Below are positions 1,478 to 46,415 of a stretch of DNA of 46,415 nt, one piece after another. Where the stretch lies: positions 1 to 46,415 of the forward strand of contig MHTK01000006.1 of the NCBI GenBank assembly GCA_001824825.1. The letters run 5' to 3'. How positions within the stretch are numbered: position 1 is the first letter of the stretch; the number at the start of each line of letters is the position of its first letter. This stretch comes from Candidatus Vogelbacteria bacterium RIFOXYD1_FULL_46_19 (lineage in GTDB: Bacteria; Patescibacteriota; Minisyncoccia; Phycocordibacterales; XYD1-FULL-46-19). The position numbers and the translations under genes are program-made. The notes under the pieces are model-generated. The model worked only from the letters and a program-made list of their open reading frames with translations, was not told the origin of the DNA and searched no databases.

Positions 1478-1984
1478 TTAGGGACGGACAAAATATAGCC
1501 AGTCTCCATTCCTTTTGAACCTGCTTACAGGGACCTCTTCGCCTGTCCAAACCTTTTCGATCAGACTGGGCGCGAGAGCAACAATACCGGCGGATTGATC
1601 CGCCGCCCGGCGTGCGAAGACGAAGTGGTTTCGCAAAGGAGCTCCTTCTATGTATAAGGCAAAACTCTTAACTCCTTTAGAAATTATTTTCGCGGTCCCG
1701 GCCGGCTGGGATCTATCGAAATCTTGTTTGAATAAAAGTCGATAGTAATCCTCAGCCGGCATAGTTCCTTCGCGGTCCCATTCCACTCTCTCTTTTTTTT
1801 CACTTTCGGCTTTAGCCGCCAGGTAGCGCTCTCGCTGTGTCAACGACATCATCGCGAGTGCATCGTGTTCACACATTCCCACCACCGTCCGCGCAGATTC
1901 CTTCTGGATACGATATTGGCTCCACTTGGGGTGGAGGACAGCGATGATCAAAATTACCACGGTCAGAATTCCTATTTTCTTCAT
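1478..1984 (-). CDS. Hypothetical protein with N-terminal membrane/signal segment
   Basis: 168-aa ORF; MKKIGILTVVILIIAVLHPKW signal-anchor; AAAGGACT RBS; hairpin terminator. Confidence 0.6.
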   Translation of the reverse strand: MKKIGILTVVILIIAVLHPKWSQYRIQKESARTVVGMCEHDALAMMSLTQRERYLAAKAESEKKERVEWDREGTMPAEDYYRLLFKQDFDRSQPAGTAKIISKGVKSFALYIEGAPLRNHFVFARRAADQSAGIVALAPSLIEKVWTGEEVPVSRFKRNGDWLYFVRP

Positions 1985-2129
1985 GGCGGAGTCCTTTCTA
2001 TGTTTTTGGCTCTAATATCATTCTACTATAAAAGGAATTAATTGTCAAGCTAAAGCGAGCTGGGGTTGTCTTTATGATAGTGTCTAAGTTTTAGAATTCT
2101 TATTTTTTCTTTAAATATAAATAGAAAAA

Positions 2130-2153
2130 CCGGTGGCTGTGTACAGCCACCGG
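2130..2153 (-). terminator. Rho-independent terminator downstream of the pseudopilin gene
   Basis: Perfect stem CCGGTGGCTG-TGTA-CAGCCACCGG followed on the minus strand by TTTTTC. Confidence 0.75.
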
Positions 2154-2173
2154 GTGGAGGAGGATTCTCGTGA

Positions 2174-3103
2174 TCACCCAATCGCACGACCAAGAAGAGC
2201 CATTATGGGATTACACGGGAATTCCGCGGGATATTTGATGAACTCAACATGACCATCCATGTACAGCACATTGGCACCGCCGGGCACGTGATGGAAGTCT
2301 TTGACGTTGTCGTTGACCTGATCCCACATCACAGGAATGGTGCTTTGCGCTTGAGCGCTACCGGCAGGATTGTTGATATCTGTGATCAGAAATCGTTCAA
2401 CCCCTTCTTTAAGACGGAAGATGGTGTTTCCGCCGGCATTGCCTTGGACAATAATGTCTCCGGCCGCGTACCCGTTAGCAACCAGGTATGCGTCAGCTTG
2501 TCCCTGAAGAACAGTGGCGGTCAAGGGGGTGTTGAACTCGATGTCACCGTCAGCATATTCATCGTAAGCTTGGGGTGTTCCAATAAGTCCCACCCCGTCG
2601 CTCACGGCCGCGTGGACAATGAAACTTCCGAATTCGTTGGTATTAGAAGCCAACCAACCGTAATACATGTACCCGCGGTCGTCGAATTCTTTTGCATCGA
2701 GCTTCTCAAAATTGGGGCTACTTGCGGTTTGGGTGCACCACGAACCAGACGGGCAAACCAGAAATTCGTCAGGATCGGAGGCGGCATCGGATGGGCAGAA
2801 GTAGACTTTCATGTCTGACAAATATTCCGGATAAATGGCTGGTCCGTTTGGTGTTGCCACCCAACCCTCGCCGGTTGGCGAATCGGCGTTCCATTCTGAC
2901 CCGCAAGGCGGGAACTTGCTACCAGGTGACTCCCCGGCGTACATCTTCAGGACGATACCCCACTGCTTCAGATTGTTCTGACAGCTGGCTCGCCTTGCCG
3001 CCTCCCGCGCCCGCGCTAGGGCGGGCAGGAGAATGGCGGCGAGAATACCGATGATAGCGATGACAACCAACAGTTCGATGAGTGTAAACCCTCTCTTCTT
3101 CAT
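2174..3103 (-). CDS. Type IV prepilin-like protein with N-terminal methylation motif, DUF1559-like
   Basis: [49 protein letters not shown]..., C-terminal '[14 protein letters not shown]'; strong SD AAAGGAGGT upstream. Confidence 0.85.
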
Positions 3104-3543
3104 AATGAGACCTCCTTTTAAGGTGCTAGTCTTGCACTCAAGCTAAAAACATTTCAGCTCAAGATAACTGCAAGATAATTAAGCCAAATTTATCCTGTAC
3201 TTATTGAGAGTTTTTGTCAATCAATCAGGACTTTTCAAATTTCGAAATCAACAATTTTCTCTCTATTCCCAACTAGGAGACGACCGTCGTAAAGGTTGGA
3301 ACTTAAAATAAAAATAATATTACATAGGTTGGACCTTGGGGTATGAAATTGTGGGGGGTGGGTAATTAATTTCGGCCTTGTCATAGTTTAGATTTCATTT
3401 TTTAAATTTTAATTTACGGCTTGAGATGTAAGATCGTCTCAACCTTTTTCGTTAGTAGATTAACGTGGTCGAGATTTTAATAGTAGTAGTGATCGACCCT
3501 TGGTCGATAGTAAAAAATTACTAAACATAATCTATTAAGTACT

Positions 3544-23177: not shown

Positions 23178-24041
23178 ATGTCCAGAGATACTAAATACTC
23201 AATCAAGAACCTACAGAAAGACTTTCCTACCGACGAAGCCTGTCTCGCCTTTATCTTCGATACTCTACATAGCCACAAGTGCTCTTGTGGGGGCGAATAC
23301 CGACCGGTAAAGGGACGTAAGCAGTTCCAGTGTTCTAAGTGCCGTTTCCAGATCGCTCCAGCCTCTGGTACGATATTTCATAAGTCTGATACCCCTCTTA
23401 CCCTCTGGTTCCACGCTATCTGGATATTCTCTAATGCTAAGTCTGGTATCTCGGCCAAGGAAATGGAGCGACAGCTAGGAGTCACCTACAAGTGCGCTTG
23501 GCGGATTCTTTCTCTGATCCGTAAGGCTCTTAAAGATGAAAACAAGGACAAGTTGGGCGGTGATGTAGAGATAGACACTGGTTTCTTGGGTGGCCGACAC
23601 TATGCGGGTCGCAATAACGAGAAGTTAAGTGAATCTATTGCTAAGAAAGCAGTGGTTAATGTTGCCTACGAACGAGGTGGCCGAATCGTGGCAGAAATTG
23701 CTACTGATAATTCATCAGAATCTATGCGGGGGTTTGTGGAAAAGTATGTCTCACAAAATGCTCGGATGTATACCGACAGTAGTCGTGTCTATCATCAGTT
23801 TAACGAGCGGGATATTGAAAAGGTAAACCACAATAAGCGGGAGTTTTCTCGTGGGACAGTGCATATCAATACTGTAGAGACGTTTTTTGCCCACCTAAAA
23901 CGGAGTATGCGGGGTACCTATAAAGTGCTATCTAAGAAGCACCTACAGTCTTACCTTGACCTTTTTGTCTGGCACTACAACAATCGACACAACGACAGGG
24001 AGAGGTTTGCGGTTTTGCTCGGTACCGTATTGCATGCTTAA
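23178..24041 (+). CDS. IS1595-family (ISXO2-like) transposase
   Basis: N-terminal zinc ribbon 'CSCGGEYRPVKGRKQFQCSKCRFQIAPASGTIFHKSDTPLTLWFHAIW', 'GGDVEIDTGFLGGRHYAGR', 'YTDSSRVYHQF', 'TVETFFAHLKRSMRGTYKVLSKKHLQSYLDLFVWHYNNR'. Confidence 0.92.
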   Translation: MSRDTKYSIKNLQKDFPTDEACLAFIFDTLHSHKCSCGGEYRPVKGRKQFQCSKCRFQIAPASGTIFHKSDTPLTLWFHAIWIFSNAKSGISAKEMERQLGVTYKCAWRILSLIRKALKDENKDKLGGDVEIDTGFLGGRHYAGRNNEKLSESIAKKAVVNVAYERGGRIVAEIATDNSSESMRGFVEKYVSQNARMYTDSSRVYHQFNERDIEKVNHNKREFSRGTVHINTVETFFAHLKRSMRGTYKVLSKKHLQSYLDLFVWHYNNRHNDRERFAVLLGTVLHA

Positions 24042-33609: not shown

Positions 33610-33643
33610 ACAAAAATATAGTCGCTGCGCTTCTTATTTTTGT
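33610..33643 (-). terminator. Terminator-like hairpin downstream of the tRNA-like element
   Basis: ACAAAAATA...TATTTTTGT 9-bp stem; T-rich 3' arm on the minus strand. Confidence 0.4.
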
Positions 33644-33696
33644 GGACCTAGCGAGAATCGAACTCGCGTTTCGACAATGTTCACCCTGTTAAATCC
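33643..33696 (-). tRNA. Truncated tRNA-like element (T-arm plus acceptor-like stem; no complete cloverleaf)
   Basis: Minus strand: GCGAG-TTCGATT-CTCGC T-arm, then TAGGTCC-A, which can pair (with G-U) to GGATTTA 46 nt upstream. D-arm and anticodon arm not recognisable. TATAAT at 33717-33722 upstream. Confidence 0.35.
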
Positions 33697-33761
33697 AAAA
33701 TGTTACTAGTGGTGTCATTATATCATTTGCTCGAACTTTTTTTGAGCGAGAATGAATCGTC

Positions 33762-33907: not shown

Positions 33908-33994
33908 AACAATGCGGACGAAGTTTTGGCAAAACTATTTTTTGGAGAAAGGATTTGGCAAAACTTCGGCTCATTCGTTTTTGAATTCGGATGT

Positions 33995-34166
33995 CGCAAA
34001 TGGAAAAGGAGGGTGAGAAGCGAATGCTTGGAGCTTCGCAAGGCCGGAGCGCGACGGCGCGAGGAGGGGTAGCGGAATTTTCCAGCAGAAAAATATCCGT
34101 GACTTGGGGAGGAATTTTCCATTTGCTCCTCTTTTTGTTTTTGAAAAATTGGGGGCGGACAGAAAA
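33995..34166. repeat. Left terminal inverted repeat of the 12.4-kb island (contains a 37-nt insertion, 34084-34120)
   Basis: 33995-34083 and 34121-34166 are the reverse complement of 46327-46415 and 46281-46326, with no mismatch seen over 135 nt. Confidence 0.92.
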
Positions 34167-34168
34167 AA

Positions 34169-34243
34169 TTGAGAAAAAGTGTTATTCATGTTAGTATAGT
34201 TGTGAGGGTTAGTTTCAACGCTCATACTTATACTATCATACTA
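34169..34243 (+). promoter_or_regulatory. Promoter/operator region of the island operon
   Basis: TTGAGA (34169-34174)-N17-TAGTAT (34192-34197); a second TATACT (34229-34234) 8 nt before ATG 34243; TAGTATAGT and ATACTAT/CATACTAT repeats suit XRE autoregulation. Confidence 0.5.
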
Positions 34244-34455
34244 TGGAAAGCAAACAAAATAGACAAATTGGGGATAAAATAAAAGTCTTTCGAGCAAAGC
34301 AAGGATTGACACAGGACGCTCTTGCGAGAAAGTGCGATATTCCCTATACAACGCTGACTAAGATTGAATCGAATGTGATAACAAAGCCGTCAATCCAAAC
34401 AGTTACCAAAATTGCCGAAGGGTTGGGAATAACCATTGATGATTTGATTAAATAA
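34243..34455 (+). CDS. XRE-family HTH transcriptional regulator
   Basis: 'IGDKIKVFRAKQGLTQDALARKCDIPYTTLTKIESN...PSIQTVTKIAEGLGITIDDLIK'. Confidence 0.92.
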   Translation: MESKQNRQIGDKIKVFRAKQGLTQDALARKCDIPYTTLTKIESNVITKPSIQTVTKIAEGLGITIDDLIK

Positions 34456-34461
34456 ATTTAT

Positions 34462-36252
34462 ATGCAATCACGAGAAATACGAAAAAAGTTTTTAGATTTT
34501 TTTAAGGAACGAGGACATATAATAGTACCCTCGTCGCCACTTGTGCCAGAGAATGATCCGTCAGTACTTTTCAATACTGCTGGCATGCAACCACTCGTTC
34601 CATATCTCATGGGTTTGCAACATCCGTCAGGATCAAAGCGTATCGCTAATGTGCAAAAATGTGTACGTACTAGTGATATTGATGAGGTTGGGGACAATAC
34701 CCATCTTACTTTCTTCGAGATGCTTGGTAACTGGTCACTTGGTGATTATTTCAAAAAAGACGCGATACAGTGGAGTTTTGAATTCTTAACATCAAAAAAT
34801 AGTGGCTTGGGGCTAGACCCACGACGTCTTTATGTAACGGTCTTTGAAGGTGACGAAAACGCGCCATGCGATAACGATGCACATAGTGTTTGGAAAGAAG
34901 TATTTGAAAATGAAGGCATGGATCCTCAAAAAAGAATCTTTTTCATGGATGCTGCTTCGAACTGGTGGAGCCCGGGAGATAATGGTCCATGTGGACCAGA
35001 TAGTGAGATGTTTTACGATGTGACGGGTGGATTGACTGAGGGCTTGACTAAAGAAGAATTTATCGCAGCTGACAAAAACCAACATGTGGTTGAAATATGG
35101 AATGACGTGTTCATGGAGTATCAAAAGAGTGATGGCAAAATTAGTGGCAAACTCAAAAACCAAAATGTTGATACTGGTTCAGGACTAGAGCGCGTTACTT
35201 GTGTGGTACAAGGGAAAGAAAATGTTTTTGACACTGATTTATTCAAACCCGTCATTAACAAAATATCGTTACTTGCGCAACAGGGTGATGAGCGGTCCAA
35301 GCGTATAATTGCCGACCATATTCGCGCTTCAGTCTTCCTCATTGCTGATGGTATAACTCCTTCAAATACTGAACAGGGTTATGTTTTGCGTCGATTGCTT
35401 CGTCGCGCGATAAGACATGCAGATAAAATTGATATAAAACAAGATTCACTCGTCTCGCTCGTGCCAATAATTGTTGAGGAATACAAAGAAGCCTACCCGA
35501 ATATCTTGGAAAAGCAGGCATTCATGGAACAAGAAGTTCTGAAGGAGGAAATGAAGTTTAGAAAAACCCTTGCTGTTGGTATCAAAGAGTTCGAAAAAAT
35601 AAACACTCCTATTATTTCTGGACATGATGCGTTTATCCTTTTTTCAACATACGGCTTTCCTTTTGAACTGACTTTGGAGCTTGCCGATGAAAAAGGATTG
35701 AAAGTGAATAAGGACGAGTTTCAGATAGAAATGGAAAAACATCAAAACCTTTCACGGACAAGTACATCAGGAAAATTTAAGGGAGGGTTGGCTAACACTA
35801 ATGAGACAACAACGATGCTCCACACAGCAACACACATTATGCTTGCAGGGTTGCGAAAATATTTAGGTGACAGTGTCCATCAGGCAGGCTCTAATATTAC
35901 TGAAGAACGTACACGATTTGATTTTACGTATGAGGGAAAAGTAGAAAGGGAGACGCTTGATCGGGTGGAAAAATATGTGAATGAAGCTATCAGCAAGAAG
36001 TGTAGCGTGGTAACAGAAATCATGGAGAAAGAAACCGCAATGAATGCGGGAGTGGAGGGAAGTTTTTGGGAGAAATACCCAGATAAAGTTACCGTGTATA
36101 CGGTAAGGTGTAGTGACGGTACAGTATATTCACAAGAGCTTTGCGGAGGCCCACATGTTGCTAATACCGGAGATGTTAAAGGAACATTTAAAATTATAAA
36201 AGAAGAAGCGTCGTCCGCTGGTGTTCGACGCATTAAGGGAGTCTTGGAATAA
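34462..36252 (+). CDS. alaS: Alanyl-tRNA synthetase, short form (catalytic plus editing domains, no C-Ala)
   Basis: 'REIRKKFLDFFKERGHIIVPSSPLVPENDPSVLFNTAGMQPLVPYLMG', 'THLTFFEMLGNWSLGDYFK', 'GPCGPDSEM', 'VEIWNDVFMEY', 'DTGSGLERV', editing motifs 'HTATHIML' and 'CGGPHVANTGDV'. Confidence 0.93.
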   Translation: MQSREIRKKFLDFFKERGHIIVPSSPLVPENDPSVLFNTAGMQPLVPYLMGLQHPSGSKRIANVQKCVRTSDIDEVGDNTHLTFFEMLGNWSLGDYFKKDAIQWSFEFLTSKNSGLGLDPRRLYVTVFEGDENAPCDNDAHSVWKEVFENEGMDPQKRIFFMDAASNWWSPGDNGPCGPDSEMFYDVTGGLTEGLTKEEFIAADKNQHVVEIWNDVFMEYQKSDGKISGKLKNQNVDTGSGLERVTCVVQGKENVFDTDLFKPVINKISLLAQQGDERSKRIIADHIRASVFLIADGITPSNTEQGYVLRRLLRRAIRHADKIDIKQDSLVSLVPIIVEEYKEAYPNILEKQAFMEQEVLKEEMKFRKTLAVGIKEFEKINTPIISGHDAFILFSTYGFPFELTLELADEKGLKVNKDEFQIEMEKHQNLSRTSTSGKFKGGLANTNETTTMLHTATHIMLAGLRKYLGDSVHQAGSNITEERTRFDFTYEGKVERETLDRVEKYVNEAISKKCSVVTEIMEKETAMNAGVEGSFWEKYPDKVTVYTVRCSDGTVYSQELCGGPHVANTGDVKGTFKIIKEEASSAGVRRIKGVLE

Positions 36253-36266
36253 AGAATATTAATTTT

Positions 36267-37292
36267 ATGAACAAACAAAAATTAACTTTCATCTGTATAG
36301 GAATAATTGTTTTAGCAAGTCTTTCTTTGGTGTTGTTGAGAGACAAAGATTTGACGAGCTCTGTCGTGCCAGAATTAGCACATGTCCGCATTGGTTGGCA
36401 GACTCCATGGGCTACGCAAGGCCAATTGACTCAGATTTTAAAATATACAGATATATTGAAGAATAACGAAATTGAAGGAGACTTCAAAGGATTTACTTAT
36501 GGTGGTCCGTTAAACGAGGCGGCGCTTGCAGGTGAGGTTGATATTATCTTTACAGCAGACCAACCAGCGGCCACTCTGCTCGCAAAGGATGAAAAGTGGA
36601 CTATCATTGGAAGGCTTATGTATAACAGAGTTTCACTCTATGTGCCACCCATGTCTCCTATAACTACATTAGCTGATCTGAAAGGAAAGACCGTAGCAAT
36701 GCCTTTTGGAGCAGCTGCACAACGTGTGGCCTTGAAAGCCGAGCAAGATGCAGGTCTTGATCCTAAAGTGGATGTAAATAACATTAATCTTGGTATTTAT
36801 GAGCAGAGCGATCTTGTTCGTGATCCCAATGCAAAAAAATGGGGCACCATAGATGCAATGGCGGGGTTTGACCCAACACCAGCGATCTTTGAAGAAAAAG
36901 GATTGGTAAAAAACCTACATGTAGGCAAAGTCGTATCGGTGATTGTAGTTTCAAATGATTTTATTAACCGCAACCCCGATTCAGTCAGTCGTTTCCTTAA
37001 ATCGTTTAACGAAGCATATGATTACTACCGAAACAACATATCGCAAGCCGACACATGGTTTGTTGCAGAGTCAGGACTTGATATTACACCGCGTGCATTA
37101 GAGATAGCGGCAGATGTAGAACCAAATCTTAAAGTAACTTCAAAAAATGAAATTCGTATTGGCTTCAATGACGAAGATTATAAGATAATGCAAGAGGCGG
37201 CTGATTTTATTTTTGATCAAGGGTTAGTAAAGAAACGAGTAATTATGAGAGAGCATGTAGACACTTCGTTTCTAGAAGAGATAGCTAAATAA
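36267..37292 (+). CDS. SsuA/NMT1-type ABC transporter substrate-binding protein
   Basis: N-terminal signal-anchor; 'VRIGWQTPWATQGQLTQILKY...GPLNEAALAGEVDIIFTADQPAATLLAK...TLADLKGKTVAMPFGAAAQRVALKAEQDAGL...FDPTPAIFEEKGL'. Confidence 0.85.
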   Translation: MNKQKLTFICIGIIVLASLSLVLLRDKDLTSSVVPELAHVRIGWQTPWATQGQLTQILKYTDILKNNEIEGDFKGFTYGGPLNEAALAGEVDIIFTADQPAATLLAKDEKWTIIGRLMYNRVSLYVPPMSPITTLADLKGKTVAMPFGAAAQRVALKAEQDAGLDPKVDVNNINLGIYEQSDLVRDPNAKKWGTIDAMAGFDPTPAIFEEKGLVKNLHVGKVVSVIVVSNDFINRNPDSVSRFLKSFNEAYDYYRNNISQADTWFVAESGLDITPRALEIAADVEPNLKVTSKNEIRIGFNDEDYKIMQEAADFIFDQGLVKKRVIMREHVDTSFLEEIAK

Positions 37293-37299
37293 TCACATT

Positions 37300-38442
37300 A
37301 TGCAAAAGAAAAAGAATCTTATTTTTGTTTCATTGGATACGGTACGGGCAGATGTTGCGTACAGTGGAAAATTCGAAGCGATAGAAAAATTAAGAAATGT
37401 AGGTGTTACATTTTTAAATACTATTTCTTCTTCTCCACTTACACCAGTCAGTCACTCTACTGTTTTTACCGGGCTACAACCGTTTAATCACGGTGTCCGT
37501 CACCTTTTTAAAGAGCAAATTAATAAAAATGTTCCGGTTTTAGCAGAGATACTAAAATCAGAGGGATACAAAACCGGAGCAATTGTGTCTTGTCCAGGGA
37601 TGAATAGGTGGTATGGATTCTCACGCGGATTCGACCACTATGATGATGAGATACCGCTTTTAGCTGACGGGAGTGATCCGCTTCAAACGGTTGATGTAAA
37701 AAAACGAGGTACGGCGCTTAAACGAGCTGAGGTTGTTATTGACAGAGCAATACAGTGGATTTCAAAAAATAAAGATGAACAGCCTTTCTTTGCCTTCCTA
37801 CACTTTTTTGATGCTCACTGGCCATATGAAGCGCCTAAGAAATTTGCAGGCGATAACATATACGAAGAGGAGGTTGCATATTCAGCTCATCATTTCGGTT
37901 TATTTATGAAAGAAATGGAAGAAATGAATCTTCTATCAAACACAACAGTTGTTTGTTTTTCTGATCATGGTGAGGATCTTGATGGTATGTATCCGAATGA
38001 CAAGGGTGGTGAAAAACTTGGACATCCCGAAGAATTAGGACATGGATGTTTGCTTTACGATCAGACGCAGAAGGTTGTTTTGATCATAAAAGATCCCTCG
38101 TTAAAAGAAGGAATAAATATTGAAGAGCAAGTAAGATTGGTTGACATCATGCCGACAACACTTGAATTATTAAACATCAAGAAAAGAGTTTTCTCTTTTG
38201 ACGGCATATCTATATTACCTGCAATTAGCGGTGAAAAGTTAAATCTTCCTGCATACTCTGAGACTTTCTATCCGGAAGAGCAAACAGTTGCTACTGGAGG
38301 GAAGTTTTTAGAAACATGTAACAAGAAGTCAATACGTCTCAAAAACTCCGAAAAGATTATTACCCATCTCAACAGTGATTACATTGAGGTTTATGATCTG
38401 AAGCAAGATCCTAATGAGATGAAAAACCTTTCAAAAAATTAA
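37300..38442 (+). CDS. Sulfatase/alkaline-phosphatase-superfamily hydrolase 1
   Basis: 'NLIFVSLDTVRADVAYSG...SSSPLTPVSHSTVFTGLQP...FAFLHFFDAHWPY...TTVVCFSDHGEDL...LGHGCLLYDQ'. Confidence 0.85.
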   Translation: MQKKKNLIFVSLDTVRADVAYSGKFEAIEKLRNVGVTFLNTISSSPLTPVSHSTVFTGLQPFNHGVRHLFKEQINKNVPVLAEILKSEGYKTGAIVSCPGMNRWYGFSRGFDHYDDEIPLLADGSDPLQTVDVKKRGTALKRAEVVIDRAIQWISKNKDEQPFFAFLHFFDAHWPYEAPKKFAGDNIYEEEVAYSAHHFGLFMKEMEEMNLLSNTTVVCFSDHGEDLDGMYPNDKGGEKLGHPEELGHGCLLYDQTQKVVLIIKDPSLKEGINIEEQVRLVDIMPTTLELLNIKKRVFSFDGISILPAISGEKLNLPAYSETFYPEEQTVATGGKFLETCNKKSIRLKNSEKIITHLNSDYIEVYDLKQDPNEMKNLSKN

Positions 38443-38452
38443 TAATAAAAAT

Positions 38453-39841
38453 ATGGGAAATATAAATAAAGTCATTATGATTTGCGTAGATACTTTGAGA
38501 GCCGACACTCTTTTTAACCGTGAGGATTTTTACTTAAAATATAATATCAAACAAAAACTTAATACACCAAATCTTGACTGGTTGGTAAGAGAATCAACTC
38601 TCTTAAAAAATTGTATTACGACATCACCGTATACTACAGCATCCCATGCTTCTTATTTTACTGGCTACTGGCCAAAACATCACTCCGTAATGGATTTTTT
38701 CAAGAATAAATTATCTAAACCAACTATTTATAATTTATTAAATAAAAAAGGTTATAAAACTTTCTTTTGCAATGACTTTCCTTTTATTCTTGGAGACTAT
38801 CTTGGTTTCAAAGAAGGCGTAGATCGTTACTATATTGAAAGTGAATTGGAATGCCTAAAGGATTTTCATAACACAGATGGTAACAAATTTGCGTTCTTCC
38901 ATTTTGCTGATGTCCATTGGCCATATGGATACCACAAGCTAAAAAGTAATAATGAATTTGACTCATTAGAAAATTTTTTAATGGAACAATCGAAAATAAC
39001 AGGGGTTCCTCTCAGTAAAAAAATAAAACCGGGGCCGATAGAAGCGATAAAGGAAGATAAAGAATTATTGCTTGAGCAAAATTATCGAATGATAATAGAC
39101 TATTACTGCAATAAAAAAGATTACAACACAGTAATGCAGTGGTATGCGGATGGAATTTCTCGTTTTGACAACAGTCGCTTCGATGAATTCATAAGGTCGT
39201 TAAAAGATTATGGACTTTTTGATGATCCAAATACATTAATAGTAATATTTGGTGATCATGGTGAGAATTGGTCGGACGAATCATACGGACATTTTAATTC
39301 ATGTGATTATAGTGTAATCAATGTTCCAGTTTTACTTCATAGCAAAAGCATTCCTCGTAAAATAATTAATGAAATAACGAGAACTATAGATATTGTACCT
39401 TCAATAATTAATTTTTTAAATGTCGATATAAAAAATGATTTTGATGGGGTTGATTTATATAGTAAAGCTCCAGATCATTCAGTCACACAATCATGGGTAT
39501 CAGATTTCAAAGAGCTGGTTGGTTTTTTTCAAGAAACAAAAAATAAAAATGAATTTATAGATGGAAAGATAAAAAGTTTTCTTCTAAAAGAAGCGGTAAT
39601 AAAAGACAACAAAAAGCTTGAGTTTAAGTATACCAATTCAGGCGAGGTTGAATATTCAAAATCTTCAATTATTAAAAATGGGCTGGAAATAAACACTGAT
39701 TTGAATTTTCAAGAGGAATTAGGAGAATACTTACGGCGTTATAATCATGATCTCGTAAATAGGTCAGATCAAAACGTAGCAATTGAGGATAAAATTTTGA
39801 ATGAGTTTAAGAATTTAGGATACTATGGTGGAGAACAATAA
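38453..39841 (+). CDS. Sulfatase/alkaline-phosphatase-superfamily hydrolase 2
   Basis: 'KVIMICVDTLRADTLF...TTSPYTTASHASYFTGYWPKHH...FFHFADVHWPYG...NTLIVIFGDHGENWSDES'. Confidence 0.85.
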   Translation: MGNINKVIMICVDTLRADTLFNREDFYLKYNIKQKLNTPNLDWLVRESTLLKNCITTSPYTTASHASYFTGYWPKHHSVMDFFKNKLSKPTIYNLLNKKGYKTFFCNDFPFILGDYLGFKEGVDRYYIESELECLKDFHNTDGNKFAFFHFADVHWPYGYHKLKSNNEFDSLENFLMEQSKITGVPLSKKIKPGPIEAIKEDKELLLEQNYRMIIDYYCNKKDYNTVMQWYADGISRFDNSRFDEFIRSLKDYGLFDDPNTLIVIFGDHGENWSDESYGHFNSCDYSVINVPVLLHSKSIPRKIINEITRTIDIVPSIINFLNVDIKNDFDGVDLYSKAPDHSVTQSWVSDFKELVGFFQETKNKNEFIDGKIKSFLLKEAVIKDNKKLEFKYTNSGEVEYSKSSIIKNGLEINTDLNFQEELGEYLRRYNHDLVNRSDQNVAIEDKILNEFKNLGYYGGEQ

Positions 39842-40535
39842 AAAAAATGAATTAAAAATGATTTGTCTCGAAGAGATTTTGAGACAAAAGACAATCATCT
39901 TTAACGAGTGTGTTATGTTTGACCAACACACAACCATTAATGGTGCGGGGATAGATTTAAGGCCTATTACCTATATTGATTTGCCTGTTTCCTCTCCTCG
40001 TTACTTAGACGCAGTAGGAGAATATATATATGGATTGCAGAAAGTCGTTAATTATCGTTCTTTATGTGGTATAGCTACGCAGGGTCTTTCTTACACATAT
40101 AGCACATCTATAAAATATAACATCCCCGCAATCTACTTTAGGAAGGAACCACAAAAATATGGCACAAATTCTCATCTTGCCGGAAAATTGACACGGGACC
40201 AAACTCCTACACTAATAATTGACAATTTGATCTACTCGGGTAAAACACTCAATTTAGCAGTATCCAAGTTAAAAGAGTCGGATATCTCGATCGCCGGTCT
40301 ATTCACTGTTGTTAAGTTTGAAACTTCTTTTAGTGAGCTCATTGTTGATAATAAATTATTTTATCTCTTAACAGTCAAAGAGATCTATGATTATTTAATT
40401 CAAAATAACTATTTTCCAAAAAATATTGAAAAATACATTAAGCTTTTTTTAAAGGATCAAACCTTATTTCATTCAAAATCAGAGATTTATCTACAATATT
40501 TATCAGAATTAAAGAAGTCAAAAACTAGCTTTTGA
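39825..40535 (+). CDS. Phosphoribosyltransferase-fold protein (OPRT-like)
   Basis: 'RSLCGIATQGLSYTYSTSIKYNIPAIYFRKEPQKYG...PTLIIDNLIYSGKTLNLAVSKLKES' PRPP-loop-like motif; overlaps the preceding ORF by 17 nt. Confidence 0.75.
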   Translation: MVENNKKNELKMICLEEILRQKTIIFNECVMFDQHTTINGAGIDLRPITYIDLPVSSPRYLDAVGEYIYGLQKVVNYRSLCGIATQGLSYTYSTSIKYNIPAIYFRKEPQKYGTNSHLAGKLTRDQTPTLIIDNLIYSGKTLNLAVSKLKESDISIAGLFTVVKFETSFSELIVDNKLFYLLTVKEIYDYLIQNNYFPKNIEKYIKLFLKDQTLFHSKSEIYLQYLSELKKSKTSF

Positions 40536-40548
40536 CTATATCGATTAT

Positions 40549-41280
40549 ATGTCACAGTCAAAAATTAGCGTAGTAGCAATTGAAGGTTTACATAATTCAG
40601 GGAAAAGTACCCAGATTGCAGATTTATATTCTAATTTGAAAAAAGAAGGAATTTTTGTTGTGGTTTTAAGAGGCCACGGATTTCGTTCAGGCACAGGCTT
40701 AGATATTAATGATCCTGTTTCTTCGTGGTGGCAAAAACATTACCCCTTATTTATGGAAGCAGGACAAAAGGGAAGAGAATCTTTTATGGAGGCAGAAGCT
40801 AGAGCGACAAATAAATTGTACCAAGAGTTATTTGATATTAAAAATAATCTGCTTGAGAAAATGAAGAAAAATAAGTTCGGTAGAGCTGTGATTCTTTTAG
40901 ATAGATCTATAGTGTCTCGTCTCTTTATCTGGCACGGACATTCAAAGAACCCAAACTTTAAAGATTTACTTTCATTTACATACAAAAATACACATAACAA
41001 AGAAACAAAGATAATGCCTATTCCGGACTTATTAATTGTTCTCAATGTTTCTCAAAAGTTATTGCTAAAAAGAAATAAAAACAAGTCTGAGAGAAAAGAT
41101 AAAATTCTTCTTAATAAGAAAATTATATTGAGTCGTTACCAAGATTATATTAAACTAATTAATAATCTCCCAAAAAATATTAAAGAACGGACTTTTATTA
41201 TTAATGCAGGAAGGTCAAAAACTGCTGTTCAAAAAGAAATCCTGAAATTAATTAACAGCCAGTTATATTTTAAAAAATAA
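40549..41280 (+). CDS. Thymidylate-kinase-like P-loop kinase
   Basis: 'VVAIEGLHNSGKSTQIADLYSNLKKEGIFVVVLRGHG...AVILLDRSIVSRLFIW...PIPDLLIVLNVSQKLLLKR'. Confidence 0.8.
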   Translation: MSQSKISVVAIEGLHNSGKSTQIADLYSNLKKEGIFVVVLRGHGFRSGTGLDINDPVSSWWQKHYPLFMEAGQKGRESFMEAEARATNKLYQELFDIKNNLLEKMKKNKFGRAVILLDRSIVSRLFIWHGHSKNPNFKDLLSFTYKNTHNKETKIMPIPDLLIVLNVSQKLLLKRNKNKSERKDKILLNKKIILSRYQDYIKLINNLPKNIKERTFIINAGRSKTAVQKEILKLINSQLYFKK

Positions 41281-41283
41281 ATT

Positions 41284-41991
41284 ATGCAACATTTAGAAAT
41301 TCTGCCAAATCTAAAAGGAAAGACCGCCGTTATTTATGAGAGAATTTGGTTATTAGAGGAACTTGAATACTTGAAAGAATCAGAATCTGATCATGTTCTG
41401 GCTATTGATAGAAGGATCTACTTGAAAGACGACCATGTTTTTACTGCGATGCAAGGTTCATCAATGATTGCATCGCTAGCCGAACGACTTATACAAGCTG
41501 GGGTTAAAAGAATTATTAGGATAGGAACAACCGGAAGTCTTCACGACGAACACAAGCTATTTGAAATAATTATTCCGATGGCAGTATATAAAGATGAAGG
41601 GACAAGTAATCAATATATTGATAGCATTTTCCCTTGTTTGTGTGATTTTGAATTATCTTCTAAGATTTGTAATCTTTTGCATGTAGCTGGGCACACTCAT
41701 TATCGAGGAGTCACATGGACTACTGACGGACGATGGGTTGAATCTTTAGACAAGATGCACAAATTAAAGAAATGGGGCGTTCTTTCGGTTGACATGGAAA
41801 CATCTGCACTTTATACCGTTTGCTTATTTAATAAAATACCATGCATCGCTTTAAATTTTGTCTCTGATTTTCCAATGAAATCAGAAAAAAATGGCTTAAG
41901 AGGAATACCAGATGATTACGAAATATATAAAAAGGAACTTTTAATAAATGTGGATAAAGTAACTCAGCTAATAGTTAAAGGGAAAATATAG
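41284..41991 (+). CDS. Nucleoside phosphorylase superfamily (PNP/UDP) protein
   Basis: 'MQGSSMIASLAERLIQAGVKRIIRIGTTGSLH...GVTWTTDGRW...GVLSVDMETSALYTVCLFNKIPCIALNFVSD'. Confidence 0.85.
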   Translation: MQHLEILPNLKGKTAVIYERIWLLEELEYLKESESDHVLAIDRRIYLKDDHVFTAMQGSSMIASLAERLIQAGVKRIIRIGTTGSLHDEHKLFEIIIPMAVYKDEGTSNQYIDSIFPCLCDFELSSKICNLLHVAGHTHYRGVTWTTDGRWVESLDKMHKLKKWGVLSVDMETSALYTVCLFNKIPCIALNFVSDFPMKSEKNGLRGIPDDYEIYKKELLINVDKVTQLIVKGKI

Positions 41992-41994
41992 GCC

Positions 41995-42726
41995 ATGAAA
42001 TTTGATACTTCCTTTGAAAAATTTGCGAATGAGTATGATAATGTCATGGGTGATAATGGGGATTATACTCACTTAAAAACTATCACACCGGCACTTTTTG
42101 ATCTTATTAAAAACCCAAAAGGTCTTAAAATTTATGATGTTGGTTGTGGTAACGGATATATTGCTCGTCGTCTTATGCGAGAAGGAGCAAAAGAAGTTTT
42201 TGCGTCTGATATTTCAGAAACCATGATTCATATTGCAAAATCTCGATATCCTATACATTCTATTATTTATTCTATAAGAGATATGTCGGACTTTTCTGGA
42301 TTTAAGGAGGGCTATTTTGACTTAGTTGTTATGAATATGTCGATTTCTTACTCATCAAATATTAAAAAATTAGCAAAGGAAATTGCACGAATTTTAAAAA
42401 CTGGAGGGCGATTTGTTTTTACACTTGATCATCCATTAAAATATTCAGCATATAAGGTGTTTGGTAGGACTGATTTCGATATTACTTTGAAGGACAGCGA
42501 TTATCTTAACGAGAAAGAAAAAACTACTTATAATCATTGGACAAAGCAACAAAATGCTTTAAGGATATACACTCGACCATTGGGATCTTATATTAACGCT
42601 TTAGGAGAATATGGGCTTTTTGTAAAATTTATTAGAGAACCACAATCAAAAGCTGAGTATAAAGATAAAAAAGTAAAAACTAGTATTCCGTTTAAAATTG
42701 CTGTAGAGGTTGTTAAGGTGGTATAA
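41995..42726 (+). CDS. Class I SAM-dependent methyltransferase
   Basis: 'LKIYDVGCGNGYIARRLMREGAKEVFASDISETMIHIAKSRYP...FDLVVMNMSISY...EIARILKTGGRFVFTLDHP'. Confidence 0.9.
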   Translation: MKFDTSFEKFANEYDNVMGDNGDYTHLKTITPALFDLIKNPKGLKIYDVGCGNGYIARRLMREGAKEVFASDISETMIHIAKSRYPIHSIIYSIRDMSDFSGFKEGYFDLVVMNMSISYSSNIKKLAKEIARILKTGGRFVFTLDHPLKYSAYKVFGRTDFDITLKDSDYLNEKEKTTYNHWTKQQNALRIYTRPLGSYINALGEYGLFVKFIREPQSKAEYKDKKVKTSIPFKIAVEVVKVV

Positions 42727-42731
42727 GTAAT

Positions 42732-43763
42732 ATGAGAAAAATATCAAAAATAAAAAAAGGTGCGAAAGTAGCAATTCTCTCTCCGTCCTTTGCGGCACCG
42801 GGTAAATGGCCTGCTGTATATGAATTCGGCCTTAAACGACTTCGGGAAAACTTTGGGTTAATTCCCGTGGAGTTTCCGGCAACTAAAAAAATTGGTGCTT
42901 CAAAGGAAGAAAGATCTAAAGATTTAATTAACGCATTCGAAAACAAAAATATAAGTGCGATTATTACTTCTCTCGGGGGTAATGATCAAGTGACTTATAT
43001 TAAGAATCTTCCCAAAGAACCTTTTATTAAAAACCCTAAAGCATTTTTTGGTTATAGCGACAATACTCACTTTATGAACTTTCTTTGGCTCTGTGGTATA
43101 CCATCGTATTATGGCGGAGCAGTGTTAACACAGTTTGCTATGAATGGAGATATGGATGAATTTACTATGCGTTATTTAAAGTACGCACTTTTTGAATCTG
43201 GAGAAAAGGAACTCAAAGTAAGCGAAGTTTTTAATGATGTTGGATTAGATTGGGGCGATAAAAATCTACTGGACAAAAAGCGCATGTATGAAAAAAATGA
43301 TGGGTGGTTTTGGGATGGAAATAATGACGCTAAAGGAATAAGTTGGGGTGGTTGTGTTGAATCTATTGATGAGATATTACGTCATGGAATAAAGATGCCA
43401 ACACTCGAACAGTTTGAACAATGTATTTTATTCATGGAAACTTCAGAGGAAATTCCGTCATCCGATTATGTATTTCGAGTATACCGTGCACTTGGTGAAC
43501 GGGGCATACTAGAGCGTGTAAAAGGCATATTAATTGGACGGCCAAAAGCTTGGGAGTTTAACAAACAGCAATCATTGGAAGAAAGAAAAGCATACCGCGC
43601 AAAACAAAGAGAAATAACACTTGATGTTATCCGCCGGTACAATAAAACTGCGCCAGTAATTCAAAACATGGATTTCGGACACACTGACCCGCAAATTTGC
43701 TTGCCATATGGAAAGTCTGTGCGAATTAATTCTTCTGCAAAAAAGATTTTTGCAGAATTTTAA
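42732..43763 (+). CDS. S66-family peptidase, MccF/LD-carboxypeptidase-like
   Basis: 'KVAILSPSFAAPGKWPAVYEFGLKRL', 'FFGYSDNTHFMNFLW' nucleophile elbow, 'GISWGGCVESIDEIL', 'ILFMETSEE', 'NMDFGHTDPQICLPYG' His motif. Confidence 0.92.
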   Translation: MRKISKIKKGAKVAILSPSFAAPGKWPAVYEFGLKRLRENFGLIPVEFPATKKIGASKEERSKDLINAFENKNISAIITSLGGNDQVTYIKNLPKEPFIKNPKAFFGYSDNTHFMNFLWLCGIPSYYGGAVLTQFAMNGDMDEFTMRYLKYALFESGEKELKVSEVFNDVGLDWGDKNLLDKKRMYEKNDGWFWDGNNDAKGISWGGCVESIDEILRHGIKMPTLEQFEQCILFMETSEEIPSSDYVFRVYRALGERGILERVKGILIGRPKAWEFNKQQSLEERKAYRAKQREITLDVIRRYNKTAPVIQNMDFGHTDPQICLPYGKSVRINSSAKKIFAEF

Positions 43764-43765
43764 AT

Positions 43766-44239
43766 ATGAACAATGAACATAAAAAACATATGGCAGAAGC
43801 GATTGCTCTTTCAAAAGAATCCATTTCTTCTGGCGGAGGACCATTCGGAACAGTGATAGTAAAGGACGGGAAAGTTGTTGGTCGTGGTATAAATCGCGTC
43901 ACAGCATGGAATGACCCCACGGCGCATGGAGAAGTTGTTGCTATTCGTGAAGCATGTAAAAATCTAAACTCATTTCAGCTTGATGACTGTATTATTTATA
44001 CAAGTTGTGAGCCTTGCCCTATGTGTCTTGGGGCAATTTATTGGTCTCGTCCGAAAGCAATTTATTTTGCAAATACAAGGGAGGACGCCGCCTCTATTGG
44101 TTTTGATGATGCTCTTATTTACGCAGAAATTAATGTTCTTTATTTGAATCGGAAGAGACCATTTCATCAGATAATGCGAGAAGAAGCGATTACCGTATTT
44201 CAATCGTGGGCTGAGAAAGAAGGCAAAATCGAGTATTGA
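43766..44239 (+). CDS. Guanine-deaminase-like CDA-superfamily nucleobase deaminase
   Basis: 'GGPFGTVIVKDGKVVGRGINRVTAWNDPTAHGEVVAIREACKNLNSFQLDDCIIYTSCEPCPMCLGAIYWSRPKAIYFA...GFDDALIYAEI' resembles B. subtilis GuaD closely. Confidence 0.9.
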   Translation: MNNEHKKHMAEAIALSKESISSGGGPFGTVIVKDGKVVGRGINRVTAWNDPTAHGEVVAIREACKNLNSFQLDDCIIYTSCEPCPMCLGAIYWSRPKAIYFANTREDAASIGFDDALIYAEINVLYLNRKRPFHQIMREEAITVFQSWAEKEGKIEY

Positions 44240-44250
44240 TTATTATAAAA

Positions 44251-44991
44251 ATGCAAAATATATTAAAAAAATTAATAGTTTTGGTGGTGATACTTTTTTT
44301 GTGGCAATTACTATCGTCCAGTATCCACACGATCATTCCTTCTCCTATTGAGGTTTTTACTGCATTATACAATCTTTCGGTCCAGGGGGATATTTTTATA
44401 CATATTTTTGCTAGCTTAAAGAGGGTTGTTGTTGGTTTTTTGATTGCTACATTTCTTGGGGTAGGACTTGCTTTAATAACTGGGTATTACAAAAAGATTG
44501 ACGTATTTCTTAAGCCACTTGTTGAATTTCTACGTCCAATTCCCCCAATAGCATGGATACCTATTGCAATATTAATTTTTGGTCTTGGTGACATGTCGGC
44601 ATATTTTATTGTTTTTATCGGAGCTTTTTTCCCAATATTTACCAATAGTTTTTTTGGTGTCAGCTCCCTGCCTGTTATTTATGAAAATATTGCACACTCA
44701 TTTGAAATAAAAAATTTTATTTTTGTGAAAGATATACTCTTTAAGTTTTCCTTGCCATATATTTTCACAGGTTTAAAAATAGGTATTGGTATGGCATGGA
44801 TGAGTGTTATAGCGGCGGAACTTATCGGAGCACAATCAGGTTTAGGATATTTTATACAGCTCAACAGACTTTTATTGAGAACTGATAATGTTATCGCGGG
44901 AATGATTTTGATCGGGTTTATTGGATATATGCTAAGTTTGCTTTTACTTACAGTGGAAAAAATAATCATTCCGTGGAGTATTAAGAAATAA
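44251..44991 (+). CDS. SsuC/TauC-type ABC transporter permease
   Basis: 'PSPIEVFTALYNL...SLKRVVVGFLIATFLGVGLALITGYYKKIDVFLKPLVEFLRPIPPIAWIPIAILIFGLGDMSAYFIVFIGAFFPIFTNSF...WMSVIAAELIGAQSGLGYFI'; alternative ORF start at 44236. Confidence 0.92.
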   Translation: MQNILKKLIVLVVILFLWQLLSSSIHTIIPSPIEVFTALYNLSVQGDIFIHIFASLKRVVVGFLIATFLGVGLALITGYYKKIDVFLKPLVEFLRPIPPIAWIPIAILIFGLGDMSAYFIVFIGAFFPIFTNSFFGVSSLPVIYENIAHSFEIKNFIFVKDILFKFSLPYIFTGLKIGIGMAWMSVIAAELIGAQSGLGYFIQLNRLLLRTDNVIAGMILIGFIGYMLSLLLLTVEKIIIPWSIKK

Positions 44992-44994
44992 TTT

Positions 44995-45717
44995 ATGTTG
45001 GAACTAAAGAACATCTCCCATTACTATAGGAATCAATCACGAAATACCGAAATTTCGGTGTTTGAAAACTTTAATCTTTTGATTGGAGAAGGAGAAATTG
45101 TCTCCCTCGTGGGAAAATCTGGTTGCGGAAAAACAACATTGGTAAATATTATCGCTGGATATACAGAACCAACCAGCGGTAGTGTTTTTATGAATGGAGA
45201 GAAAGTCGTTGCTCCTGGCAAGGACAGAATTGTAATCAATCAAATACACGATCTTTTTGATTGGATGACGGTATATCAAAATATGAGACTTGTGAGTAAT
45301 GATGATAATGATATTAATAAGTATCTTTCAATGACAAGGCTCAGTGAGTTTGCTGATGCATATCCATACGAACTTTCGGGTGGCATGAAGAAGAGATTAT
45401 CCCTTGCCAGGGCACTGGTTGTTGACCCAAAATTTATTATAATGGATGAACCCTTTAATTCTCTCGATTATCAATTGAGAGAAAAATTCCAAGAAGAATT
45501 ATTAGATATTGTTAGAAAATCTAAAAAAACTATTTTGTTTGTTACGCATGACATAGAAGAAGCAGTATTTTTATCTGATAAAGTTATCATACTCTCAGGC
45601 AGACCAACACAAATAAAAAAAGAAATTGTGATTTCATTTTCAAAAAACAAAGTTGACTCAATAAGAGACACGGAAGATTTCATATTTCTTAAAAAGAAAA
45701 TAAAAGAAGAAATGTAA
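44995..45717 (+). CDS. SsuB/TauB-type ABC transporter ATPase
   Basis: Walker A 'GKSGCGKTT', signature 'LSGGMKKRLSLARAL', Walker B 'FIIMDEPFNSLD', 'THDIEEAV'. Confidence 0.95.
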   Translation: MLELKNISHYYRNQSRNTEISVFENFNLLIGEGEIVSLVGKSGCGKTTLVNIIAGYTEPTSGSVFMNGEKVVAPGKDRIVINQIHDLFDWMTVYQNMRLVSNDDNDINKYLSMTRLSEFADAYPYELSGGMKKRLSLARALVVDPKFIIMDEPFNSLDYQLREKFQEELLDIVRKSKKTILFVTHDIEEAVFLSDKVIILSGRPTQIKKEIVISFSKNKVDSIRDTEDFIFLKKKIKEEM

Positions 45718-46280: not shown

Positions 46281-46415
46281 TTTTCTGTCCGCCCCCAATT
46301 TTTCAAAAACAAAAAGAGGAGCAAATGGAAAATTCCGCTACCCCTCCTCGCGCCGTCGCGCTCCGGCCTTGCGAAGCTCCAAGCATTCGCTTCTCACCCT
46401 CCTTTTCCATTTGCG
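46281..46415. repeat. Right terminal inverted repeat (truncated by the window end)
   Basis: Reverse complement matches 33995-34083 and 34121-34166. Confidence 0.92.

Follow-up and report, generated by a model that had tools for sequence, protein, structure and literature searches.

Genes and borders of the cluster

The window analysed here, the whole stretch of 46,415 nucleotides, corresponds to bases 1-46,415 of contig C6 in the genome of Candidatus Vogelbacteria bacterium RIFOXYD1_FULL_46_19, a member of the candidate phyla radiation (CPR) whose assembly comprises 707,755 bases and is 99% complete. Towards its right end lies a cluster of about 12 kb (34243-45717), in which 13 open reading frames (ORFs) follow one another on the + strand, at spacings of -17 to +14 nt, as an initial annotation of this DNA had described; all of them are intact. 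Comparison with Pfam, NCBIfam and PDB sequences assigns the products to a small XRE regulator, an alanyl-tRNA synthetase (AlaRS), a complete ATP-binding cassette (ABC) importer of the NMT1/SsuA-type family, with its solute-binding protein (SBP), permease and ATPase, and a block of eight proteins, SulfA, SulfB, PRT, KIN, PNP, MT, S66 and GuaD, whose genes part that of the SBP from those of the rest of the importer. This composition had been presented as having no described match, and it was indeed found nowhere else in the sampled genomes, so that it looks unique to the host.

It is highly probable that the cluster is a mosaic, in which the AlaRS gene and the eight-gene block have been inserted into a four-gene importer operon. 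A search with the SBP yielded nothing from 287 genomes sampled across the phylum; among 297 sampled from the order, a single strong match came from G412, which belongs to a different family within that order. At the G412 locus (L108), XRE, SBP, permease and ATPase genes form a compact operon without intervening genes, with identities of 46, 44, 46 and 41% to the window; the two loci share these four homologous genes, their order and an upstream palindrome, whereas neither the AlaRS nor the nucleotide block is present in G412. In the simplest history, a self-regulated XRE-SBP-permease-ATPase operon was later joined by an AlaRS gene, placed behind XRE, and by the block, which came to separate SBP from permease. 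The opposite course, in which G412 lost nine genes, is possible on a comparison of two genomes, but it requires an old 13-gene set that has left no other trace. Downstream of the G412 importer (L108:3341-7328), a LexA-like/DNA-methyltransferase fusion ORF was recognized by eye, together with restriction-type ORFs, which suggests a mobile region there too.

The initial annotation had put the 13 genes forward as a candidate system. Neighborhood searches across genomes sampled from the phylum and the order (207-380 genomes for PRT, SulfB and KIN) led us to reject a conserved 13-gene system: only XRE, SBP, permease and ATPase recur together, the other genes being unlinked or absent. PRT has weak matches, resembling orotate phosphoribosyltransferase (OPRT), in 26 other genomes out of 380; SulfB has weak matches only (287 genomes searched), and KIN has no relatives in 207 genomes of the order.

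The cluster also stands apart by its GC content (30-41% in its genes versus 44.5% across the first 33.5 kb) and by its borders, two inverted-repeat arms of about 200 bp that differ only by a 37-nt indel and a scaffold gap of 16 N. This gap (C6:46416-46431) lies inside the right arm; contig C6 carries on after it, and the sequences on its two sides overlap by CGC. Partial copies of the repeat are found elsewhere in the same genome, one of them adjoining a tRNA-Asn gene, and on these grounds we argue that the borders are this genome's own. An island between inverted repeats of this length could invert. We regard the cluster as real, unusual and probably mobile.

At the head of the cluster, where one promoter and an XRE regulator had been proposed, a promoter-like site does overlap a 23-nt imperfect palindrome (arms 34188-34210 and 34217-34239) just 5' of the XRE gene. 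The promoter scan as a whole did no better than shuffled sequence (48 sites found versus 44.1 expected), so that a control site is better evidenced by the palindrome, which is matched in G412: inverted repeats with a TTAGTAT half-site precede the XRE genes of both loci. The palindrome (34188-34239) is a candidate XRE operator. No riboswitch was matched in an Rfam search of the window and of L108.

Several observations concern the surroundings of the cluster and its possible origins. On the minus strand to its left, a fragment resembling a tRNA 3' half (T-arm and acceptor end only) was seen by eye at 33640-33716; ARAGORN, run on account of a suspected tRNA gene near this border, finds no tRNA within the window. 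An IS1595/ISXO2-like transposase ORF was likewise recognized by eye 10 kb upstream (23178-24041), and three tRNA-Ala genes (CGC, TGC and GGC; L008:931-3954) are found on the right of the island with its extra AlaRS, no more than 4 kb away. That the block came from a phage or plasmid was rejected, as it has no close relatives among phages, plasmids and viral contigs, and its PHROG matches are generic. So was a defence system, PADLOC matching only generic helix-turn-helix, methyltransferase and ATPase proteins.

Table 1. Features of the island and its borders, in order along the window.
Feature	Position	Strand	Remarks
Left inverted-repeat arm	33948-34166	.	reverse complement at C6:46281-46482
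Promoter-like site TTGAGA-17-TAGTAT, overlapping palindrome	34169-34239	+	upstream of XRE
XRE/Cro-type regulator, 70 aa	34243-34455	+	46% identical to the XRE heading the G412 operon
Island AlaRS, second copy, 596 aa	34462-36252	+	canonical catalytic core and editing motifs
NMT1/SsuA-family SBP	36267-37292	+	42-44% identical to G412 SBP
SulfA, alkaline-phosphatase/sulfatase-superfamily hydrolase	37300-38442	+	Thr at nucleophile position; no evident N-terminal signal
SulfB, second alkaline-phosphatase/sulfatase-superfamily hydrolase	38453-39841	+	Thr at nucleophile position
PRT, orotate-phosphoribosyltransferase-like, divergent phosphoribosyl pyrophosphate (PRPP) loop LIIDNLIYSGKT	39825-40535	+	
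KIN, thymidylate-kinase-like P-loop kinase	40549-41280	+	
PNP, nucleoside phosphorylase/AMP-nucleosidase family enzyme	41284-41991	+	
MT, class I S-adenosylmethionine-dependent methyltransferase, UbiE/BioC-like	41995-42726	+	
S66 (LD-carboxypeptidase/MccF fold) protein	42732-43763	+	Gln at Ser nucleophile position
GuaD, guanine deaminase	43766-44239	+	best PDB match 1wkq, E 2.8e-54
ABC permease, TTG start	44236-44991	+	SaoP/NtrB/TauC-like, below cut-offs; 46% identical to G412
ABC ATPase	44995-45717	+	SaoA/NtrCD-like, below cut-offs; 41% identical to G412
Right inverted-repeat arm, to window end	46281-46415	.	rest of arm beyond gap

Importer and nucleotide enzymes

The importer resembles the SsuABC, TauABC, NrtABC and ThiXYZ systems in having an SBP, a single permease and an ATPase of matching families. 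It differs from them in falling below every named subtype cut-off (TIGR01728, 109 versus 163.5 bits; SaoP, 168 versus 295; SaoA, 209 versus 360; curated NCBIfam values), in its presumed control by XRE, in being split by eight genes and in the absence of sulfonate-using enzymes from the cluster.

Among the enzymes of the block, GuaD is strongly matched, and its initial annotation as a GuaD-like deaminase holds: it matches guanine deaminase of Bacillus subtilis (1wkq) over its whole length (residues 5-157) and carries the zinc-deaminase motifs HGE and PCPMC, where the Bacillus enzyme has HAE-type and PCxxC motifs. Their contexts differ, the window gene sitting in an operon with a phosphorylase, a phosphoribosyltransferase and a kinase, and that of B. 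subtilis in a nitrogen-use locus. In another genome, G232, a GuaD homologue (48% identity; L083:4220-4690) lies about 1 kb upstream of an AlaRS gene (1495-3261) on the same strand, with a single opposite-strand ORF between them.

For other members of the block, the families first proposed stand in part. SulfA and SulfB do belong to the phosphohydrolase/sulfatase superfamily, the only level at which they match; both lack the formylglycine motif C/S-x-P-x-R and have Thr as the presumptive nucleophile (TPVSHSTVFTG and TTASHASYFTG in the corresponding regions). They begin directly at the metal-binding motif with no evident signal peptide, and are therefore probably cytoplasmic; from their superfamily, they probably act on phosphate esters. 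The phosphoribosyltransferase is no more than OPRT-like, a Pfam search with PRT giving no hit. As for KIN, a canonical Tmk is encoded at C2:3347-3862, which makes KIN an additional copy.

Two alanyl-tRNA synthetases and an S66 protein

The island AlaRS is a typical member of its family, scoring 703 bits against the 529-bit cut-off of the NF002436 equivalog and bearing the HTATH and CGGPH motifs. It had been called a short AlaRS; the identity stands, and the length is normal for the phylum. In trees its neighbors are AlaRS from other families within the host's order, that of G255 (64% identity) being the nearest. The genome has another AlaRS gene (C6:64018-65875), lying between mnmA and a pilM-like gene, and since the order mnmA-alaS-pilM is seen in several members of the family, we take this gene to be the positional native copy. 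It groups in trees with the AlaRS of G040, a member of another family. At 71 catalytic-core positions conserved in 24 AlaRS relatives, the island enzyme shows no departure, whereas the native enzyme shows 12 and that of G040 shows 13, nine of the departed positions being common to these last two. The divergent core motifs GEPGGPDSE, VDFGGGLER and FRSGD of the native enzyme are also found in G040.

As assembled, the native gene is frameshifted by one base at a tract of seven G, which may be an assembly error. Taken as it stands, this frameshift may leave the genome with the island copy as its sole intact and working AlaRS; a canonical enzyme would then apparently be displacing a native one with a divergent active site. 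The initial annotation had held that genes being sole copies of housekeeping functions would speak against a joint system, and in the case of this AlaRS that may partly apply.

The S66 protein had been read as an S66 peptidase. The fold is confirmed by a full-length match, and the Glu and His segments (ETSEE, GHT) are retained in the CPR family to which it belongs. What is missing is the Ser nucleophile of the MccF self-immunity peptidase: where Bacillus MccF-like structures read GGQDSIR, the window protein reads GGNDQVT, and Gln takes the place of Ser in all 12 sequences compared (the window protein and 11 CPR homologues with full alignments). Judged by the Ser-Glu-His triad, in which this residue is replaced, the window protein is no MccF-type serine peptidase; some other activity is possible.

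S66 homologues with 46-69% identity occur in CPR metagenome-assembled genomes with no other specific cluster gene nearby, the weak XRE or ATPase matches seen at two loci being generic, and no constant partner was found among their neighbors at the CPR loci examined. At L013:10001-11943 a DUF3977 gene and an S51 peptidase gene come immediately after the homologue, and at L016:4037-5708 a gene for a GNAT acetyltransferase does. S51 and GNAT families are known from microcin C resistance. They adjoin S66 at two of 11 CPR loci (one each), and neither is present at the other loci examined.

Possible functions of the island

Our tentative explanation, to which we assign a probability of about 0.4, is that of a laterally assembled, XRE-controlled island for the uptake and salvage of nucleobases and nucleotides. 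Its backbone would be the small XRE protein, controlling its own promoter, and the SsuA/NMT1-type importer, with two insertions: an AlaRS gene of canonical CPR type following XRE, and the eight-gene block separating SBP from permease. One promoter would drive the whole set as a single transcript. The importer would take up a small organic substrate, presumably a base, a nucleoside or a related anion, to be processed in the cytoplasm by SulfA and SulfB (cleavage or transfer of phosphate esters), PNP (phosphorolysis) and GuaD (deamination). Phosphoribosyl transfer by PRT, phosphorylation by KIN and methylation by MT could be further steps, in a direction that we can only infer. The AlaRS would supply Ala-tRNA, possibly as the cell's only intact AlaRS, and may be a replacement or a passenger. 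We favor uptake and salvage because the enzymes of the block belong to families of nucleotide metabolism, with a strong match in the case of GuaD, and it is the best fitting of the three functions raised by the initial annotation, even if the 13 genes form no conserved unit. Also in favor of the explanation as a whole are the uninterrupted operon of G412, the half-site common to both loci, the low GC and repeats of the island, the additional nature of KIN, the probable cytoplasmic location of SulfA and SulfB, and the frameshift of the native AlaRS set against the unaltered core of the island copy.

Several points weigh against this explanation. The SBP is closest in sequence to SsuA, a sulfonate protein. 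SsuA is also its best Foldseek match, from a low-confidence model (predicted local distance difference test, pLDDT, of 56) that is too poor for ligand inference, the fold search merely repeating the SsuA kinship. PRT and KIN are divergent and, going by their sequences, may not catalyse the reactions for which they are named, and it is not evident what the S66 gene and the methyltransferase would contribute to salvage. Moreover, as linkage among the block genes is not conserved in other sampled genomes, their co-occurrence does not show a shared function.

Under the main rival, which we hold to be possible, an insertion-prone locus would have gathered unrelated genes as neutral cargo, sharing a promoter through insertion and having no joint function. 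The core operon does exist without inserts in G412, host-type repeats flank the island, and the inserts vary both in GC (30-41%) and in kinship, S66 being CPR-wide and unlinked, AlaRS coming from within the order and the block genes being divergent from all those sampled. However, of the eight genes in the block, six or seven encode enzymes whose substrates would be nucleotides, bases or phosphate esters, a more coherent set than chance would assemble, and the ORFs are all intact, closely spaced and on the same strand. It is highly improbable, on the other hand, that the cluster is an assembly chimera, a 12-kb piece of another organism joined through inverted repeats. The scaffold gap within the right-border repeat and the difference in GC from the surroundings are what such an artefact might leave. 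But the left border is continuous sequence, further partial copies of the repeat exist in the genome (one beside a tRNA), the island AlaRS clades within the host's order, and that same order holds the homologue of the core operon.

Uptake and salvage is also more likely than an antibiotic-resistance system. The initial annotation had considered resistance to a Trojan-horse aminoacyl-nucleotide, which the importer would admit and the S66 protein destroy, the AlaRS being an insensitive target. An extra AlaRS as a self-resistance gene has a precedent in AcmD of the ascamycin cluster, more resistant to ascamycin than the canonical enzyme (PMC12945691), aminoacyl nucleotides are known substrates for cleavage by S66 enzymes of the MccF type (PMC9239234), and an S66 homologue stands beside an S51 peptidase at one of 11 CPR loci and beside a GNAT gene at another. 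Yet the replacement of the nucleophile Ser by Gln in the window S66 and its 11 homologues deprives the scheme of its peptidase, and the supposedly insensitive AlaRS has a wholly canonical active site. With 12 core departures in the native AlaRS and none in that of the island, the native enzyme would be the likelier of the two to be drug-insensitive, were either so. A dedicated importer is also unexpected in a resistance module. We consider this function unlikely.

The third function raised at the outset, biosynthesis of an ascamycin-like alanyl-nucleoside antibiotic with self-immunity, is very unlikely, resting as it does on the same nucleophile-less S66 and canonical AlaRS. The acm cluster of Streptomyces contains an AlaRS-like transferase (AcmF), two sulfatase-like proteins, a UbiE-like methyltransferase and a phosphoribosyltransferase (PMC4257720) and, compared by kind of gene, the window has the same sorts: an extra AlaRS, sulfatase-like proteins, a methyltransferase and a phosphoribosyltransferase. 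But the sulfate activation and sulfotransferase genes of acm (acmA, B, K, W) have no counterpart among the 13 proteins, nor have its amidination genes (there is no amidinotransferase) or its exporter; a radical SAM enzyme is absent too, and the only AlaRS-like ORF of the window is full length and canonical, unlike the truncated AcmF. Without sulfate activation, sulfotransferase, AcmF or exporter genes, the cluster falls outside the ascamycin type; a functional likeness is possible all the same. The transporter, moreover, is an importer, and CPR cells have a small biosynthetic capacity. One could also imagine an alanyl-nucleotide resistance or production island built on the two AlaRS types and a non-serine MccF-like class acting on aminoacyl nucleotides, in which the native AlaRS could be drug-insensitive and the seven-G tract could be a phase-variable switch; we think this improbable as well.

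In CPR bacteria much of nucleotide synthesis is missing, and how they acquire bases and nucleosides is poorly known. If uptake and salvage is the true function of the island, an XRE-controlled importer fused with nucleotide enzymes would be a candidate route of uptake in these organisms. The work has further brought to light a CPR-wide S66 family without the catalytic serine, and a canonical AlaRS that is apparently displacing a divergent native copy. The cluster as a whole illustrates how functions can be gained in CPR cells through the insertion of genes into an existing operon.

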